Below are positions 49,523 through 57,308 of a stretch of DNA of 64,000 nt, piece after piece. The notes beneath the pieces are model-generated. The model had not been told where the DNA came from, did no database searches, and saw only the letters and a list, made by a program, of their open reading frames with translations. The first letter of the stretch is position 1. The number at the start of each line of letters is the position of its first letter. The stretch is from positions 62,001 to 126,000 of the forward strand of contig NZ_JAQUVZ010000010.1 of assembly GCF_028693135.1 (NCBI RefSeq), written 5' to 3'. Source of the DNA: Methanosarcina sp. (lineage in GTDB: Archaea > Halobacteriota > Methanosarcinia > Methanosarcinales > Methanosarcinaceae). A program made the translations under genes and the position numbers.

Positions 49523-49956
49523 GTTGTCCTCACCATTCAGGTTCAATAAATATAATTCTGATTTTTTAAAACATGGATGAATCCTTAATAGTAGATAAAA
49601 CCCTGACAAATTAAAACACTGATAAATCAGCTCGGACTGCAAGAGCCAGTTTAAGACGTTTACACAGGATTTCTGGTTAATAAGTTTCGATGTATATATA
49701 AGTTATACTATTCGGACGATTCGGTTAGATTCAGGCTGCATTTGTGCTTCGGTAGTGCCGACAGATAATATAAGGAGCCAAAAAATAGGAAAAAAACACC
49801 ACAATCAGAATTAATATAAAATTAGAATCAATATAAGGAACAGGCATCTGAAGGCAATTCAGAACATTTTATTTCTTTTTTAGAATTTTATATATCTTTA
49901 AATTATAATACCGGGGATTCCGATATTATTAAAGGACTCTTTTTCGGGGGGAGGGC
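49523..49956. promoter_or_regulatory. Divergent promoter region before the TCA-like cluster
   Basis: A 434-base AT-rich gap between the leftward DUF106 gene and the rightward aldehyde dehydrogenase. TTTTATATATCTTTAAATTA at about 49888-49907 has a good TATA box, 50-65 bases before the dehydrogenase start, and GGGGGGAGGGC just before ATG is its ribosome site. Confidence 0.5.
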
Positions 49957-51321
49957 ATGAAAATCAAATCCATTAATCCTTATACTGAAGAAGTAAACTG
50001 GACTTACGATGCATTATCTTTTGGGGACTGCGCGGACCAGATTGAAAAATCCAGGGCTGCTTTTTCAGGGTGGGGTTCTCTTTCGGTTGAGGAAAGAACA
50101 ACGTATATTGCACGGGCAGCTGAGGTACTCAGGCAGAACAAGCGGGTATATGCCGAGATAATTACGAAAGAAATGGGAAAGCCCATCAGGCAGTCACTTG
50201 CAGAGATTGAAAAATGCGCCTGGCTTTGTGACTATTATGCGGAAAATGCAGCAGAGTTTCTGAAAGACGAAGTTATGGAAACAGAAGCCGAAAAAAGCTA
50301 TGTCGCCTTTGAGCCTCTGGGAATTATTCTCGGGATCATGCCCTGGAATTTCCCTTTCTGGCAGGTTTTCAGGTTTGCAGTGCCTGCACTGACTGCAGGA
50401 AACGTGTGCCTGCTAAAGCATGCATCCAACGTGCCCGGATCGGCTCTTGAGATCGAAAAGGTATTTACCGAAGCAGGGCTGCCTGAAGATGTGTTTAAGA
50501 CCCTGTTGATAGACTCTAAAGCTGCCATGGAAATCATTGATGAGGACCTTGTGGATGGGATTTCGCTTACAGGAAGCGTAGGAGCCGGGTCTCGGGTAGG
50601 AGAGCTCGCCGGAAGAATGATCAAGCCTTTGGTGCTAGAACTTGGAGGGTCTGACCCTTTCATAGTGCTTGAAGACGCGGATATAGAACGGGCTGCGTAG
50701 GTTGCAGTTAAATCCCGTTTCCTCAATGCCGGACAGAGCTGTATTGCTGCCAAGAGGTTCATTGTCATTGAAGATGTTGTTGTGGATTTTATCGAGGCAT
50801 TTGAACTGCATATGCAGGAGCTGAAAATCGGGGACCCAATGGACGAAGAAACCGACATAGGACCGATGGCAAAAAAAGAATATGTTGACAGCCTTGAAAA
50901 GATCCTGAAGGATGCAAAAAAGAAAGGGGCAGCACCTTACATTTACGAAGAGGAACAGGAGACCGGCTTTTTCTTCATGCCAACCCTTATCCCTGCAGCC
51001 AGTACGAACATGAAGGTCTGCAATGTTGAAGTCTTCGGGCCTATTGCCCCCGTAATCATGGCAAAGAATGAGGATGACGCTGTGAAGATTGCAAACTCCA
51101 CAGATTTCGGGCTCGGAGCCGAGGTCTGGTCTGCCGACCTGAAGAGAGCTGAGCGGCTGGCAAAAAGAATCAGGTCAGGTTTTGTAACCATTAATGGAAT
51201 GGTAAAGTCCGATCCAAGGCTGCCTTTTGGAGGGGTCAAGAAATCCGGAGTAGGAAGGGAGCTTTCGTACTATGGGCTTAAGGAATTTGTAAACATAAAG
51301 ACCATCGTGGTTAACAAATAA
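49957..51321 (+). CDS. Aldehyde dehydrogenase (succinate-semialdehyde type) with an in-frame TAG
   Basis: A 454-residue NAD(P)-dependent aldehyde dehydrogenase if the TAG at 50698-50700 (codon 248) is read through. The upstream part has GIMPWNFPFWQVFR and LELGGSDPF with the general-base Glu. Directly after TAG, VAVKSRFLNAGQSCIAAKRF follows in the same frame with the catalytic Cys, and the protein ends normally (LPFGGVKKSGVGREL). The short 247-residue product would lack the catalytic Cys. Family members usually have Glu at the TAG position, so GAG to TAG is one change. Methanosarcina can read UAG as pyrrolysine. The type closest by layout is succinate-semialdehyde dehydrogenase; the specificity is inference, helped by the next gene. 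Confidence 0.85.
50698..50700 (+). other. In-frame amber codon in the aldehyde dehydrogenase
   Basis: TAG interrupts an otherwise intact frame of 454 codons between GCT GCG and GTT GCA. No frameshift or second stop occurs. Pyrrolysine insertion or a fresh nonsense mutation are the alternatives. Confidence 0.9.
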
Positions 51322-51439
51322 AAATAAAGGGTTGGGAGCCGGTCAAATCCAGGCGAATAAATATAATTGAAGGCTAATGAAAAAAAACCCGTTTAAAGAA
51401 AAATCGTTAAGAGAGCAAAGATTGAAAGTAAGAATCGAG

Positions 51440-51505
51440 TAATATTAAGATTGAGTAATATTCAGGATTAAGTAATACTTGGATTCAGGATTAAGTAATA
51501 TTTGG
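51440..51505. repeat. Short direct repeats before the TPP enzyme
   Basis: GATTGAGTAATATTCAG, GATTAAGTAATACTTG and GATTCAGGATTAAGTAATATTTG are imperfect copies in series at about 51450-51505, just upstream of the decarboxylase-like gene. They leave only a few bases for its ribosome site. Confidence 0.6.
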
Positions 51506-51513
51506 GGTTTTTT

Positions 51514-53148
51514 ATGAAAGCTTCGGACCTTTTTGTTGCCCAGCTTATAGAGGAAGGCGTGGAATATATTTTCGGACTCCCCGGAGAAGAAAACCTTGAC
51601 TTTCTCGAATCTCTGCGAAACTCGAACATAAAATTGATCATAACAAGGCATGAACAGGCTGCGGCATTTATGGCTGCAGCTTATGGAAGACTGACAGGAA
51701 AAACGGGGGTTTGTTTTTCAACCCTTGGGCCGGGAGCTACTAACCTGGTTACAGGCGTTGCCCAGGCACAGCTTACAGGAGCCCCCCTGATCTCCATATC
51801 CGGGCAGAAAGCCCTAACTGACAACTGGCAAGGCCGTTTCCAGCTTGTCGATGTTGTAAGGATGATGGAACCTCTCTGCAAAAAAGCCGTATCCATCACC
51901 GATCCGGGGATGATTCCCACGGTGATCCGAAATGCCTTCAAACATGCGGAGGCTGAAAGGCCAGGGGCTGTGCACATTGAGCTCCCGGAAGATGTGGCTG
52001 AGGACGAAACCGATGCAGTAGTGCAAAAAAGAAGTGAAATAAAAATTCCTTCCCCTGATCCTGAAGCCGTGAAAAAAGCTGCAGCTCTGATCTGTGAGGC
52101 TAAAAACCCCCTGATAATCGTTTCCTCGGGGGCTAACCGGAAAGCTATCGCCAAAGAGCTTGAGGATTTTGCAAGAAGTACGGGTATTTACCTGGTACAC
52201 ACCCAGATGGGGAAAGGTGTAGTTCCGGATGACTGCGTTTACAGTCTTTTTGCCACAGGAATCCACGCCCGGGACTATGTTAACTGTGGAATTGAGGGAG
52301 CAGACCTGATTATTACAGTGGGATACGACATCGTGGAATACCCCCCCTACCTATGGAACAGGGAACTGGATAAGCAGATCATAAACATCGATTTTGTGGA
52401 ATCAGTGCCTGACAGGTACTTTAATCCTGAGATAGAAATCATTGGAAATATTGCCTCTTCAATCAGGGAACTTGCCGCAAACATCCCGGAAAAGCGAGAG
52501 TTTCCGATCTTTGAGTACACCAGGCGTTTCATAGAGGAAAAAATAAGTGCTCCTGCCAGGAAAAGTTACCCTCCTCTTCCGCAGACGGTCGTTATGAATG
52601 TCAGGAAAGTGCTTGGGAGAGAAGACATAATCACACTTGACAACGGGATTTATAAACTCTGGTTCTCCCGCCTTTACAAGACCTATGCTCCGAACACTGT
52701 GCTCCTTGACAATGCTCTTGCAACTATGGGTGCAGGGCTTTCATCCGGAATTACCGCAAAGCTTCTCCATCCGGAACGCCGGGTGCTTGCAATCTGCGGA
52801 GACGGGGGCTTTATGATGAACTGCCAGGAGCTCGAGACAGCAGTCCGCTATGGAATTCCTGTGGTTGTCCTTATTCTCAATGACAATGCCTTTGGCTTTA
52901 TTAAATGGAAGCAGAAAAAAATGCATTTTGAGGACTTTGCACTGGACTATGGAAACCCTGATTTTTCCCTCTTTGCCGAGAGTTTCGGGGCTGCAGGCAT
53001 CAAAGTCAAAGAAGGTGATGACCTTGCAGAAGTTCTGGAAAAAGCCTTTTCTCTGAATAAAGTAGCTGTTATCGAATGCCCTATCGACTATTCCGTAAAC
53101 TATGAGACCTTCTCAATAGAACTGAGAAACTTTACATGTAAATTCTGA
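51514..53148 (+). CDS. Acetolactate-synthase-like TPP enzyme, candidate 2-oxoglutarate decarboxylase
   Basis: A 544-residue thiamine-diphosphate enzyme. The N-terminal domain has [20 protein letters not shown] and [18 protein letters not shown] with the TPP-activating Glu; the C-terminal domain has the [19 protein letters not shown]...LNDN cofactor motif. No regulatory small subunit lies nearby, and the region is not an isoleucine-valine operon. The GLPGEENLD opening closely resembles the cyanobacterial enzyme first annotated as acetolactate synthase and later shown to decarboxylate 2-oxoglutarate to succinic semialdehyde. Its position after a semialdehyde-type dehydrogenase and before SDH-like genes supports that function. 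An acetolactate synthase role is the alternative. Start is ATG 51514. Confidence 0.8.
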
Positions 53149-53150
53149 TA

Positions 53151-53215
53151 AGCAAAATTTATGTAACCAAAATTTACATAAGCAAAATTTACGTGAGCAA
53201 AACTTATTTAAACGG
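53151..53215. repeat. AAGCAAAATTTA direct repeats
   Basis: ATAAGCAAAATTTATGTAACC, AAAATTTACATAAGC, AAAATTTACGTGAGC and AAAACTTATT are four imperfect ~16-base repeats in the gap between the TPP enzyme and the flavoprotein gene. They support the view that the flavoprotein starts further downstream. Confidence 0.65.
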
Positions 53216-53303
53216 ATTATTCTTAAGCAGATTTTTTTCAAGGGTTTGCAGGTTCATTTTATGCAAACCCGTCATTGTTGAAATCAAACCCGGGGGGGAA
53301 AAA

Positions 53304-55097
53304 TTGGGAGATGCAGAGAAAAAAGCAGGGTATCCTATCCATTCACATGACGTAGTTATAGTTGGAGCCGGACTGACTGGCCTCCGGGCAGCAATTGAGA
53401 CGGTAAACCGGGGGCTTGATACAGCCATCGTTTCCAAGGTACACCCTCTCCGCGCCCATTCCGTAGCAGCTCAGGGAGGGATAAATGCAGCTCTCGGGAA
53501 TGCCGTAGCAGATGATTCCTGGGAAGACCATGCATTTGATACGGTAAAGGGTTCGGACTACCTGGCTGACCAGGATGCAGTAGAAATCATGTGCAAAAAC
53601 GCGCCCGCTGCAGTAATGGAACTTGAACATTTCGGAACTGTCTTTTCCCGTTTTCCGGATGGAAGGATAGCGCAGAGGCCTTTTGGAGGAGGGATGTTCC
53701 CAAGAACCTGCTATGCTGCAGACAGGACAGGGCATAACATTCTACACACGCTTTATGAACAGCTTGTAGACAGGGAAAAAAGTGAAAACGCGAATGAGGG
53801 CAAACTTACCTTTTACGAAGAGTTCTTTGTCACCTCCCTGGTAAAAGTTGGAGACTCTTCATTTGAAAAAGGCACGGGAAAAGGGGAAAGGTGTGCAGGC
53901 TGCACTGCAATAAACATCGCAGATAGAAGCCTGCACGGTTTTGTCTGCCGTTCCCTGCTCCTTGCTACTGGAGGTTTTGGGAGACTTTTTACCCGCTCCA
54001 CAAATGCCCTGATTAACACAGGAGACGGAGCTTCCCTGGCGCTTCGGGCAGGAGTGCCTTTAAAGGATATGGAATTCGTGCAGTTTCACCCGACTACCCT
54101 TTACGGCACAAATATCCTGATAACTGAAGGGGCAAGAGGCGAAGGCGGCTACCTTCTTAACAGCAGATATGAGCGATTCATGGAAAAATATGCCCCAAAA
54201 TCAATGGAACTCGCTCCAAGAGATATCGTTGCAAGGGCCATCCAGCAGGAGATCGAGGAAGGCAGAGGTTTTGAGGGCAGCTACGTGCTCCTTGACCTCA
54301 GGCACCTGAAAGAGAAGAAAATCGCAGAAAGCCTGCCCGGAATAAGGCTGATTTCCCTTGATTTTGCAGGCATAGACCCTATAGAGACTCCGATTCCTGT
54401 ACAGCCCGGCCAGCACTATTCCATGGGAGGTGTGGCTGCAGGAAATGACCTTGCAACTGAACTGCTAGGGATATATGCGGCAGGGGAATGTTCCTGTATC
54501 AGTGTGCACGGGGCAAACCGACTAGGAGGGAACTCCCTGCTTGAAACGGTGGTCTTCGGAAAGTTTGCAGGGCAGAAAATTGGAAAGGCTTCCCCTGCTT
54601 CCGGAAGCTGGGACAGAAACGGAGCCGAGCAGGCGGTCCTTGAAAAACTATCTCTTGAAGATGTGAGGATAAAAGCCCTGCTTAGAAGAGAATCCGGGGT
54701 GAAGATGCACAGCCTCAGGGATGAGCTGAAGAAAACGATGTTTGAATACTTTGGAGTCTTTCGGGAAGGAAAAAAGATGGAAAAGGGGCTTGAAAAGCTC
54801 CTTGAACTCAAAGCCCGGTACCCTGAAGTCCATATCAACAACAAATCCCCCCTATTCAACCAGGCGCTTATCTCTGCTCTCGAGCTTGAGGGCTTATTTG
54901 ACATCGCAGAAGCTGTTGCAAGAGGGGCTATTGCCAGGCAGGAGAGCAGGGGATCTCATTCAAGGGCTGACTACCCGGAGAGAGATGACGAAAAATTCCT
55001 CTACCACACCATCTACAGGCTAAAAGGTGGAAACCCCGTGCTTGAATCCCTGCCTGTGAGGCTCGGAAAATTTCCGGTAAAGGAGCGTGTATACTGA
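53304..55097 (+). CDS. Fumarate reductase / succinate dehydrogenase flavoprotein subunit
   Basis: A 597-residue FAD-binding subunit of the SdhA/FrdA family. FAD motif [17 protein letters not shown] is near the start. [17 protein letters not shown] has the His to which FAD is covalently bound in Sdh/Frd. [21 protein letters not shown], and [13 protein letters not shown] are substrate and FAD motifs. TTG 53304 follows GGGGGGGAAAAA; a GTG at 53193 would add 37 residues that begin inside repeats. It pairs with the 55097 subunit (TGATG overlap). No membrane anchor is encoded next to it. The symbol tfrA is used for methanogen thiol:fumarate reductase. Confidence 0.87.
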
Positions 55098-55864
55098 TGA
55101 AACTGAAGGTATTCCGCTATGATAGGGAAACAGGAGAGTCCCATTATGATACCTTTGAAATCGAACCCCTGGCAGGGATGACCGTGCTTTCTGCGCTGTT
55201 CAAGATCCAGGAAGAGTTCGACGATTCCCTTGCCTTCCGCTATTCCTGCCGAGGGGCAGTCTGTGGGAGCTGTGCAATGCTGATTAACAAAATCCCAGCA
55301 CTTGCCTGCAGGACCCGGATCGAGTCCCTTCTAAAAGGGGAAGGTAAAATAAAGCTGAAACCTTTTCCGGGAATGGAAGAGACTGTTTCCTGGAATCCCG
55401 AAAACGAGATCCTTGTGGAACCTCTCCCTTCCCTGCCAAAAGTAAAGGACCTTATTGTGGATATGGGCAAATTCTTCGAATTATACAGGGCAGTTGAGCC
55501 GACCTTTAAACCGGCTTCCGAACCCCCTGAGAAGGAGAGGCTCATGCAACCTGAAGCCGTAAAGGAGCTTGAGAAGTACACAAACTGCATACTCTGTGCT
55601 GCATGTGTGGGTTCCTGCCCGGTCTCGGGAAAAGACATAAATTTTTTGGGGCCGGCTGCTCTTGCAAAGCTGTATAGATTCCATATTGACCCACGTGAGG
55701 CTGATGATGAATCAAGGCTCATGCTTGCCAACAGTAAATTCGGCTGGTGGGGCTGTGAATTCCATGCCAACTGCAGGGCTGTCTGCCCGAAAGGTGTTCC
55801 ACCTATTGAGGGAATCGCGAAGGCTAGAAAAGAAATCAAGGAACTTGGAAAGAAACCCGATTAA
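55097..55864 (+). CDS. Fumarate reductase / succinate dehydrogenase iron-sulfur subunit
   Basis: A 255-residue SdhB/FrdB-type subunit. [2Fe-2S]: SCRGAVCGSCAMLIN...AC. [4Fe-4S]: CILCAACVGSCP. [3Fe-4S]: CEFHANCRAVCPKG. The size is that of SdhB. In Methanothermobacter thiol:fumarate reductase, the TfrB subunit has an extra C-terminal CCG (HdrB-like) domain; that domain is missing here, and neither C nor D anchor genes follow. The electron partner is therefore unclear. Start overlaps the flavoprotein stop by one base. Confidence 0.9.
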   Translation: MKLKVFRYDRETGESHYDTFEIEPLAGMTVLSALFKIQEEFDDSLAFRYSCRGAVCGSCAMLINKIPALACRTRIESLLKGEGKIKLKPFPGMEETVSWNPENEILVEPLPSLPKVKDLIVDMGKFFELYRAVEPTFKPASEPPEKERLMQPEAVKELEKYTNCILCAACVGSCPVSGKDINFLGPAALAKLYRFHIDPREADDESRLMLANSKFGWWGCEFHANCRAVCPKGVPPIEGIAKARKEIKELGKKPD

Positions 55865-55922
55865 AAAATCGGAAGCTTTTAAAGAAGAATTTTTTGAGAT
55901 TAGGCTAGGTGAGTCTATTATT

Positions 55923-57308
55923 TTGAAAACCCGAATTGAGAAGGATTCCCTGGGGGAAATGGAAGTCCCGGAAAATACTTATTACGGCATCCAGACCCAG
56001 AGAGCTATCTGCAATTTTCCTGTCAGCGGGCACAGGGAAAGGCCTGAATTAGTCAAAGCATACATTCTGATAAAAAAAGCAGCAGCGATTGCGAATATGG
56101 AACTTGGAGCTCTTGACAGGGATAGAGGAAATGCAATCGTGGCAGCAGCTGAAGAAGTGCTTTTGGACCCTGCAGGAAAGTATTCGGACCAGTTTCCCAT
56201 AGATGTTTTTCAGGCAGGGGCAGGAACTTCCTTTAATATGAACATTAATGAGGTTCTCGCAAACCGTGCTCTCGAAATAATGGGCCGAAAAAGGGGAGAT
56301 TATGATTTCCTGAGCCCTAACGACCACGTGAATAGATCCCAGTCGACTAATGATACTTTTCCAACTGCTTCCTACATAGCCATCATTTTTGTGACTGATA
56401 GACTTCTTGATGTGCTTGCGTCTCTATCGGGAGCTTTTCAGGCAAAGGCAAAAGAGTTTTCAGAAATTCCGAAGTCAGGCAGGACACACCTTATGGATGC
56501 CGTGCCTGTGACACTTGGAGACGAGTTTGGAGCTTATTCCGCGGCTCTTTTAAGAGCTTCACGCAGGATAAAAGAAAGAAGAGATGATCTCCTGGAACTT
56601 CCTTTGGGAGGCACTGCAACCGGAACAGGGGCGAATACACATCCTGGTTATCGGGAACTTGTAATCTCAAAACTTTCCGAACTTTGTAAACTGCCTTTCC
56701 GAAGAGCAGATGACAGCTTCGAAGCTCTTCAGAGCCGGGCCCAGCTTGCAGCCTTTTCAGGGGCTCTCCGGGAACTTGCACTTGAACTTATAAGAATAGC
56801 TAATGACCTGAGGCTCCTTAATGCCGGCCCAACCACCGGAATTTCCGAAATTGAACTTCCGCCTGTACAGCCCGGATCCTCTATGATGCCAGGGAAATAC
56901 AACCCTGTAATGGCTGAATGCCTGGATATGATAGGATTCCAGATTGTAGGTAACGATACTGCAGTCGCTCTTGCAGCCCAGGCAGGGCAGTTAGAGCTCA
57001 ATGTTATGACTCCTGTCATGACTTCTAACATTCTCGTATCTATTGCCCTGCTCACGAATTATCTGCCGGTTTTTCAGGAACGTTGTGTAAAAGGTATAAA
57101 GGCGCATGAGGACAGGTGCAGGGATTACCTTAAGCTAAATCCGATTCTGGTAACCTTCCTTGTTCCAAAGATCGGGTACCTTAAGGCGGCAGAGATCGCA
57201 AAAGAGGTGCTGGAGAAGAAAATTCCTTTAAAGGAAGTTGTAGTAATGAAAGGAATTTTGAGTAAAGAGGAAGCTGATGAACTGCTCAAAATTGAAAAGC
57301 TATTATAA
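55923..57308 (+). CDS. fumC: Class II fumarase
   Basis: A 461-residue fumarase of the aspartase/fumarase superfamily, interconverting fumarate and malate. TRIEKDSLGEMEVP opens the family fold. PNDHVNRSQSTNDTFPTA, SGRTHLMDAVPVTLG and the signature GSSMMPGKYNP are present; RTH and NDTFPTA favour fumarase over aspartase. The start is TTG 55923, nine bases after GGTGAG; a frame open back to 55662 overlaps the previous gene and is not needed. Methanogens usually have a two-subunit class I fumarase, so this class II form is unusual. Confidence 0.88.
   Translation: MKTRIEKDSLGEMEVPENTYYGIQTQRAICNFPVSGHRERPELVKAYILIKKAAAIANMELGALDRDRGNAIVAAAEEVLLDPAGKYSDQFPIDVFQAGAGTSFNMNINEVLANRALEIMGRKRGDYDFLSPNDHVNRSQSTNDTFPTASYIAIIFVTDRLLDVLASLSGAFQAKAKEFSEIPKSGRTHLMDAVPVTLGDEFGAYSAALLRASRRIKERRDDLLELPLGGTATGTGANTHPGYRELVISKLSELCKLPFRRADDSFEALQSRAQLAAFSGALRELALELIRIANDLRLLNAGPTTGISEIELPPVQPGSSMMPGKYNPVMAECLDMIGFQIVGNDTAVALAAQAGQLELNVMTPVMTSNILVSIALLTNYLPVFQERCVKGIKAHEDRCRDYLKLNPILVTFLVPKIGYLKAAEIAKEVLEKKIPLKEVVVMKGILSKEEADELLKIEKLL

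Follow-up and report, generated by a model that had tools for sequence, protein, structure and literature searches.

Several described systems bear on an in-frame TAG in a methanogen gene. In the methyltransferases MtmB, MtbB and MttB, the TAG is conserved across species and the pyrrolysine (Pyl) lies in the active site. A neutral case is provided by the tRNA-His guanylyltransferase Thg1 of Methanosarcina acetivorans (Heinemann et al. 2009, as cited in PMC2933860), in which Pyl was physically observed and shown not to be essential for activity. In ‘Ca. Methanomethylophilus alvus’, whose genome has few TAG stops, 16 putative Pyl proteins have been put forward (PMC4153887); they are likewise ordinary proteins with a TAG that is absent in relatives. 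On the enzyme side, OgdA and SsaD of cyanobacteria convert 2-oxoglutarate to succinate (PMC5160925), and the roles of active-site residues in a cyanobacterial SSADH have been described (PMC7510979).

Here we analyze an SSADH-like aldehyde dehydrogenase gene (SsaD/Sad type) that carries one in-frame TAG. It lies in the window, a 64,000-nucleotide stretch of a Methanosarcina sp. genome. Like the methyltransferase genes, two of which (mtbB and mttB) carry in-frame TAGs in this same genome, it has its TAG inside an otherwise intact gene, but here the TAG is private to one genome and falls at a variable site. With Thg1 it shares a species-private single TAG one transition away from the sense codon of relatives, two intact halves and a Pyl-decoding host. 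The differences are the sense codon, which is Trp in Thg1 and Gln here, and the standing of Pyl, which has been seen in Thg1 and is predicted in the window gene. Compared with the many candidates of ‘Ca. Methanomethylophilus alvus’, it is isolated in the third of the genome that was scanned. The closest solved homologs belong to the cyanobacterial SsaD/OgdA bypass (Synechococcus 7002 SSADH, PDB 4it9/3vz1), with which it shares active-site residues at nearly identical numbering and an ogdA-like neighbor; unlike the window gene, cyanobacterial SsaD has no TAG, and the Methanosarcina enzyme is SSADH-like by sequence.

The best explanation, to which we give a probability of roughly 0.6, is a neutral amber codon of the Thg1 type that is partly translated as Pyl. 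The Gln248 codon CAG would have become TAG by a single C-to-T transition in this Methanosarcina lineage. Release factor and Pyl-tRNA would then compete at UAG 248, the host having both pyrrolysine and tRNA-Pyl(CUA), so that some ribosomes would stop and leave a dead 247-aa fragment while others would insert Pyl and complete the enzyme. Residue 248 sits at a variable helix position, probably on the surface, and distant homologs have Lys there more often than any other residue; Pyl would be tolerated at such a position without taking part in catalysis. Because Pyl would be tolerated at 248, the mutation would be near-neutral; the change from Trp to UAG in M. acetivorans Thg1 is such a case.

The gene and its reading frame

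The gene occupies 49957..51321 on the forward strand, runs from ATG to TAA over 454 codons and matches Pfam PF00171. GGAGG, a strong Shine-Dalgarno sequence, stands just 5' of the ATG at 49957; the Shine-Dalgarno-like purine run read from the sequence is GGGGGGAGGG, at approximately 49942..49951 on the same strand. Codon 248 (50698..50700, forward strand) is the TAG, which is the sole internal stop in a frame that has no frameshift. About 22 full-length homologs from the genus align on both sides of it and across it, so that frame and homology continue through the UAG to a normal stop in a host that has pyl genes. The original prediction of a single TAG splitting an otherwise perfect 454-codon gene, with the catalytic Cys encoded beyond it and no other damage, is borne out in each of these respects, and the TAG itself is confirmed as real and correctly located.

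The codon for catalytic Cys262, in the motif NAGQSC, lies at 50740..50742 on the forward strand (role from PMC7510979). The 247-aa product ends before this residue and would have no nucleophile, and the sole later start listed for an open reading frame, GTG 50782, is also 3' of it. Neither half alone, therefore, can be an aldehyde dehydrogenase. The residues expected in a working enzyme are intact, namely W130, N131, W135, R139, K154, S157, S207, E228 and C262, as are E358 and S418, the likely equivalents of residues tested in cyanobacterial SSADH (PMC7510979).

Ancestral codon and character of site 248

The three closest relatives, with proteins 90-91% identical, have CAG at codon 248, so the TAG is one C-to-T transition away. 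Among genus homologs the codon specifies Gln (CAG or CAA) in 18, Glu in 5, Lys in 2 and Arg in 1, and every homolog that covers the site has CAG, CAA, GAG, AAG, AAA or CGG. TAG was found at this codon in no other sampled genome; with only one genome carrying it, conservation offers no evidence on whether it is read. A contig scan that took a single sequence as query matched distant homologs but brought up no second strain. The original prediction had described the residue as usually Glu; this fits some aldehyde dehydrogenases, including the 5 in the genus and 15 of 80 distant homologs, but not the 18 genus homologs with Gln or the closest relatives with CAG. The combination that it had associated with decay, GAG in relatives together with further damage here, is not what is seen either, as the relatives have CAG and the gene shows no further decay.

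An error of sequencing or assembly at this one base, the true codon being CAG, would produce the same picture. The assembly is a draft of 89 contigs and the base is a single change from the expected codon. We nevertheless consider an error improbable, as the contig is 127 kb long in a genome that is 99.97% complete, the TAGs of mtbB and mttB are as expected, no other anomalous split gene is found on the same contig, and isolated C-to-T errors should be rare in deep assemblies.

The site itself is tolerant. In 80 distant homologs column 248 holds K 19 times, E 15, Q 11, R 8, A 7 and T 7, among others, and its entropy lies at the 93rd percentile of the protein's columns. An AlphaFold2 model (mean pLDDT 94) predicts a helix at residues 243-254 (50683..50718, forward strand) that carries residue 248. 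Column counts separate two sets of positions in this helix, a variable one (245, 248, 249 and 252) and a conserved one (246, 250, 251 and 254). The place of residue 248 on the variable face suggests that its side chain points to solvent. Pyl is a lysine acylated at N6, and Lys is also the residue that the distant homologs most often have in this column. Since the site is highly variable and belongs to the less conserved face of the predicted helix, pyrrolysine at 248 is unlikely to take part in catalysis.

This bears directly on the proposal of a selected, functional pyrrolysine, in which Pyl248 would alter catalysis or tie SSADH output to methylamine or Pyl status. In sequence, residue 248 does fall between the general base Glu228 and Cys262, and Pyl supply depends on the pyl operon. 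Against these points, the site is highly variable, TAG occurs in no relative, the side chain probably points to solvent, and no PYLIS-like structure is present; we regard a selected role as extremely unlikely. A meaningful residue near the NAD/catalytic region, as first proposed for this codon, is not supported at a site that is Gln in the closest relatives.

Decoding capacity of the host

That Methanosarcina decodes UAG as pyrrolysine had been assumed from the outset, and the host is equipped for it. A complete pylTSBCD set (G000:C76:6000-25715, locus L130) comprises a tRNA-Pyl with anticodon CUA, a PylS of 547 aa, PylB, PylC and PylD, and both PylS domains match solved PylRS structures. TAG ends 20 of 859 predicted genes (2.3%; genes of at least 120 codons in 1.37 Mb). 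From the pyl genes, the TAG-containing mtbB and mttB and the rarity of TAG at gene ends, partial readthrough as Pyl is expected. For comparison, an amber codon introduced in M. acetivorans gave about 20-30% full-length product with Pyl (PMC2933860). We infer the insertion of Pyl at UAG 248, its efficiency and the activity of the product; the cell probably makes some full-length product that contains Pyl.

High efficiency is another matter. Folding of the 100 nt that begin at the UAG gave no more stable structure than shuffled sequences (z = +1.0), and no PYLIS-like hairpin was found there. A PYLIS is not required for Pyl decoding. The missing hairpin, the private TAG and the internal deletion of the gene in a close relative all argue against efficient decoding. 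Very improbable, in our view, is the version in which UAG248 is decoded efficiently and full-length SsaD tracks Pyl supply, coupling the 2-oxoglutarate-to-succinate step to growth on methylamines. Unless decoding of UAG248 is efficient or regulated, the understanding of pyrrolysine is unchanged by this gene.

Two further features of the pyl and methyltransferase loci were observed. In PylS (L130:9486-11129), a long Ala/Pro/Ser repeat linker joins the N- and C-terminal domains, and open frames around PylS range across the genus from about 415 to 553 codons. Copies of mtmB are broken at contig ends (G000 contigs C32, C37, C47 and C76), which is consistent with collapsed near-identical repeats.

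Constraint and gene loss

Substitution counts can reveal whether a gene has drifted. With G007 as outgroup, this lineage has accumulated 9 private nonsynonymous and 22 private synonymous changes; the corresponding counts for the intact sister G008 are 10 and 19. Nonsynonymous sites are about 3.4 times as numerous as synonymous sites, and an unconstrained gene would show far more nonsynonymous changes. By estimate, none of the branch evolved without constraint (a fraction of 0), and the 95% upper bound on that fraction is 0.18 or 0.39, according to which outgroups are used. The counts thus show no relaxed constraint, and no second lesion accompanies them. By this evidence the gene does not appear to have been long free of constraint, though a very recent TAG would be compatible with the same counts.

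The main rival reading is a nonsense mutation of recent date and ordinary kind, with which the gene would have started to be lost. Termination would dominate, the fragment would be degraded, and Pyl read-through would be physiologically irrelevant; if very recent, such a mutation would look identical in sequence. Its clearest precedent is the ortholog in G010 (locus L117, C1:3386238-3387063), which has a frameshift and has lost its middle to an internal deletion of about 640 bp (window-equivalent 50184-50821), while ogdA, directly 3' of the deleted ssaD, is intact and 97% identical. This copy indicates that at least one close relative can do without ssaD, and it keeps ordinary gene loss alive as an alternative. 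Fragmentary copies in some other genomes and the privacy of the TAG to the window genome point the same way, and since the Gln codons of the gene are 7 CAG and 0 CAA, nonsense changes at Gln would fall on TAG in any case. On the other hand, there is no second lesion, the active-site residues are kept, and constraint equals that of the sister lineage, so that the death of the gene, if it is dead, would fall roughly in the final 18-39% of the branch or later. Complete loss is also unlikely, given the 20-30% read-through with Pyl seen at an amber codon introduced in M. acetivorans (PMC2933860). On balance we hold simple nonsense loss to be possible but doubtful.

Other in-frame TAGs in the genome and genus

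The preferred reading, a neutral amber partly translated as Pyl, can be compared with a known case. In genome G001, which we take to be M. acetivorans C2A, a TAG cuts the Thg1 frame at 144 residues where four relatives have TGG, and the remaining 101 residues are intact. The known neutral Pyl protein therefore gives the same signature as the window gene: a UAG that is confined to one lineage and differs by one substitution from the sense codon in relatives. In the window gene it falls at a tolerant site. A conserved functional Pyl enzyme looks different, and here the UAG is neither conserved among orthologs nor at a conserved active-site position. The change looks like a recent, near-neutral, single-base sense-to-UAG replacement of the kind already known from Thg1.

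An ab initio scan for split genes covered 1.37 Mb, about a third of the genome, and found few real splits of any kind. The TAG splits that leave one coherent protein are confined to mtbB, mttB, a TnpB/IS605-type transposase and the window gene. The other splits were a contig C19 fragment with a TAG plus a TAA, a TAA in an FMN-reductase-like gene on C11, and possibly a TAA in a transposase. A genome-wide excess of TAG splits was also considered, but the scan yielded too few real splits for a test. The IS605/TnpB-like transposase (L217:9209, G000:C64, minus strand) has one in-frame TAG, and amber-containing transposases have already been described in Methanosarcina (PMC2933860).

Two further aldehyde dehydrogenase genes of the genus carry single TAGs, both in Pyl-positive Methanosarcina. 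In G016 (L115, C64:22000-25500), an SsaD-type gene with an otherwise intact frame has the TAG at Lys71, which is AAG or AAA in most relatives. In G008 (L116, C1:2038500-2042500), a GAPN-like gene, its frame likewise intact otherwise, has it near the C-terminus, where relatives have GAG or GAA (Glu). The ancestral codons differ, and the two were gained independently. No TAA or TGA was found in full-length aldehyde dehydrogenase matches, and with 3 of 3 in-frame stops being TAG, the chance probability is 0.07-0.11 given the mutational neighbors in the window gene, so that enrichment for TAG is only suggestive. In an Aminotran_3 control, the full-length matches contained no in-frame stops.

Few genes other than those of methyltransferases are listed as having gained an in-frame amber codon in Pyl-decoding archaea, and the window gene is a clean candidate to join them. 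Its sense ancestor is defined and the enzyme can be assayed. It supports the idea that amber mutations are buffered in Pyl-decoding organisms and able to persist there. Genes of this kind would be split or discarded by automated annotation.

Enzyme identity and gene neighborhood

The Pfam PF00171 match covers residues 2-450 with 452 bits. The best NCBIfam model is PRK09406, NADP-dependent SSADH, at 519 bits against an equivalog cut-off of 730; as the score is below it, the label ‘SSADH-like’ is used and not proven SSADH. The closest PDB structures are SSADHs (4it9 and 3vz1-3vz3), 3VZ3 being the Synechococcus PCC7002 enzyme (PMC7510979). Catalytic N131, E228 and C262 and substrate residues W135, R139 and a Ser at 418 are all present when compared with the enzyme of that study. 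No second copy of this ssaD subfamily was found in the host genome.

Downstream on the forward strand are an intact ogdA-like thiamine-diphosphate enzyme of the PRK08322 family (51517..53148), which adjoins ssaD in most of the genus, the flavoprotein (53193..55097; TIGR01812) and iron-sulfur protein (55097..55864; TIGR00384) of a succinate dehydrogenase/fumarate reductase, and an aspartate ammonia-lyase/class II fumarase family frame (55662..57308; PRK12273 match from residue 89 of the frame). The listed start of the last overlaps the preceding gene, and the true start is probably near 55920. This run of ssaD-like, ogdA-like, sdhA/frdA, sdhB/frdB and aspA/fumC-like genes in a methanogen (49957-57308) resembles the cyanobacterial 2-oxoglutarate-to-succinate bypass together with the succinate and fumarate steps. 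From gene content, a module leading from 2-oxoglutarate to fumarate/malate is plausible.

In one clade of the genus, full-length SsaD homologs have Tyr, Phe, His or Ser where Cys262 would stand; the clade comprises G015 (L016), G004 (L019), G026 (L023), G028 (L025), G005 (L021), G030 (L024) and G003 (L026), and Cys262 is likewise replaced in G002 (L020) and G014 (L028). In six of these (G015, G004, G005, G026, G028 and G030), the gene adjoins an intact ogdA. In the Cyanothece enzyme, SSADH activity is lost when Cys262 is changed to Ala (PMC7510979). Pairwise dN/dS among the Cys262-less members is 0.07-0.14, similar to that of Cys-containing ones. Because such homologs are retained, a missing Cys alone is not proof of a useless product in this genus; by sequence, they look like candidates for retained pseudoenzymes or for enzymes with changed chemistry.
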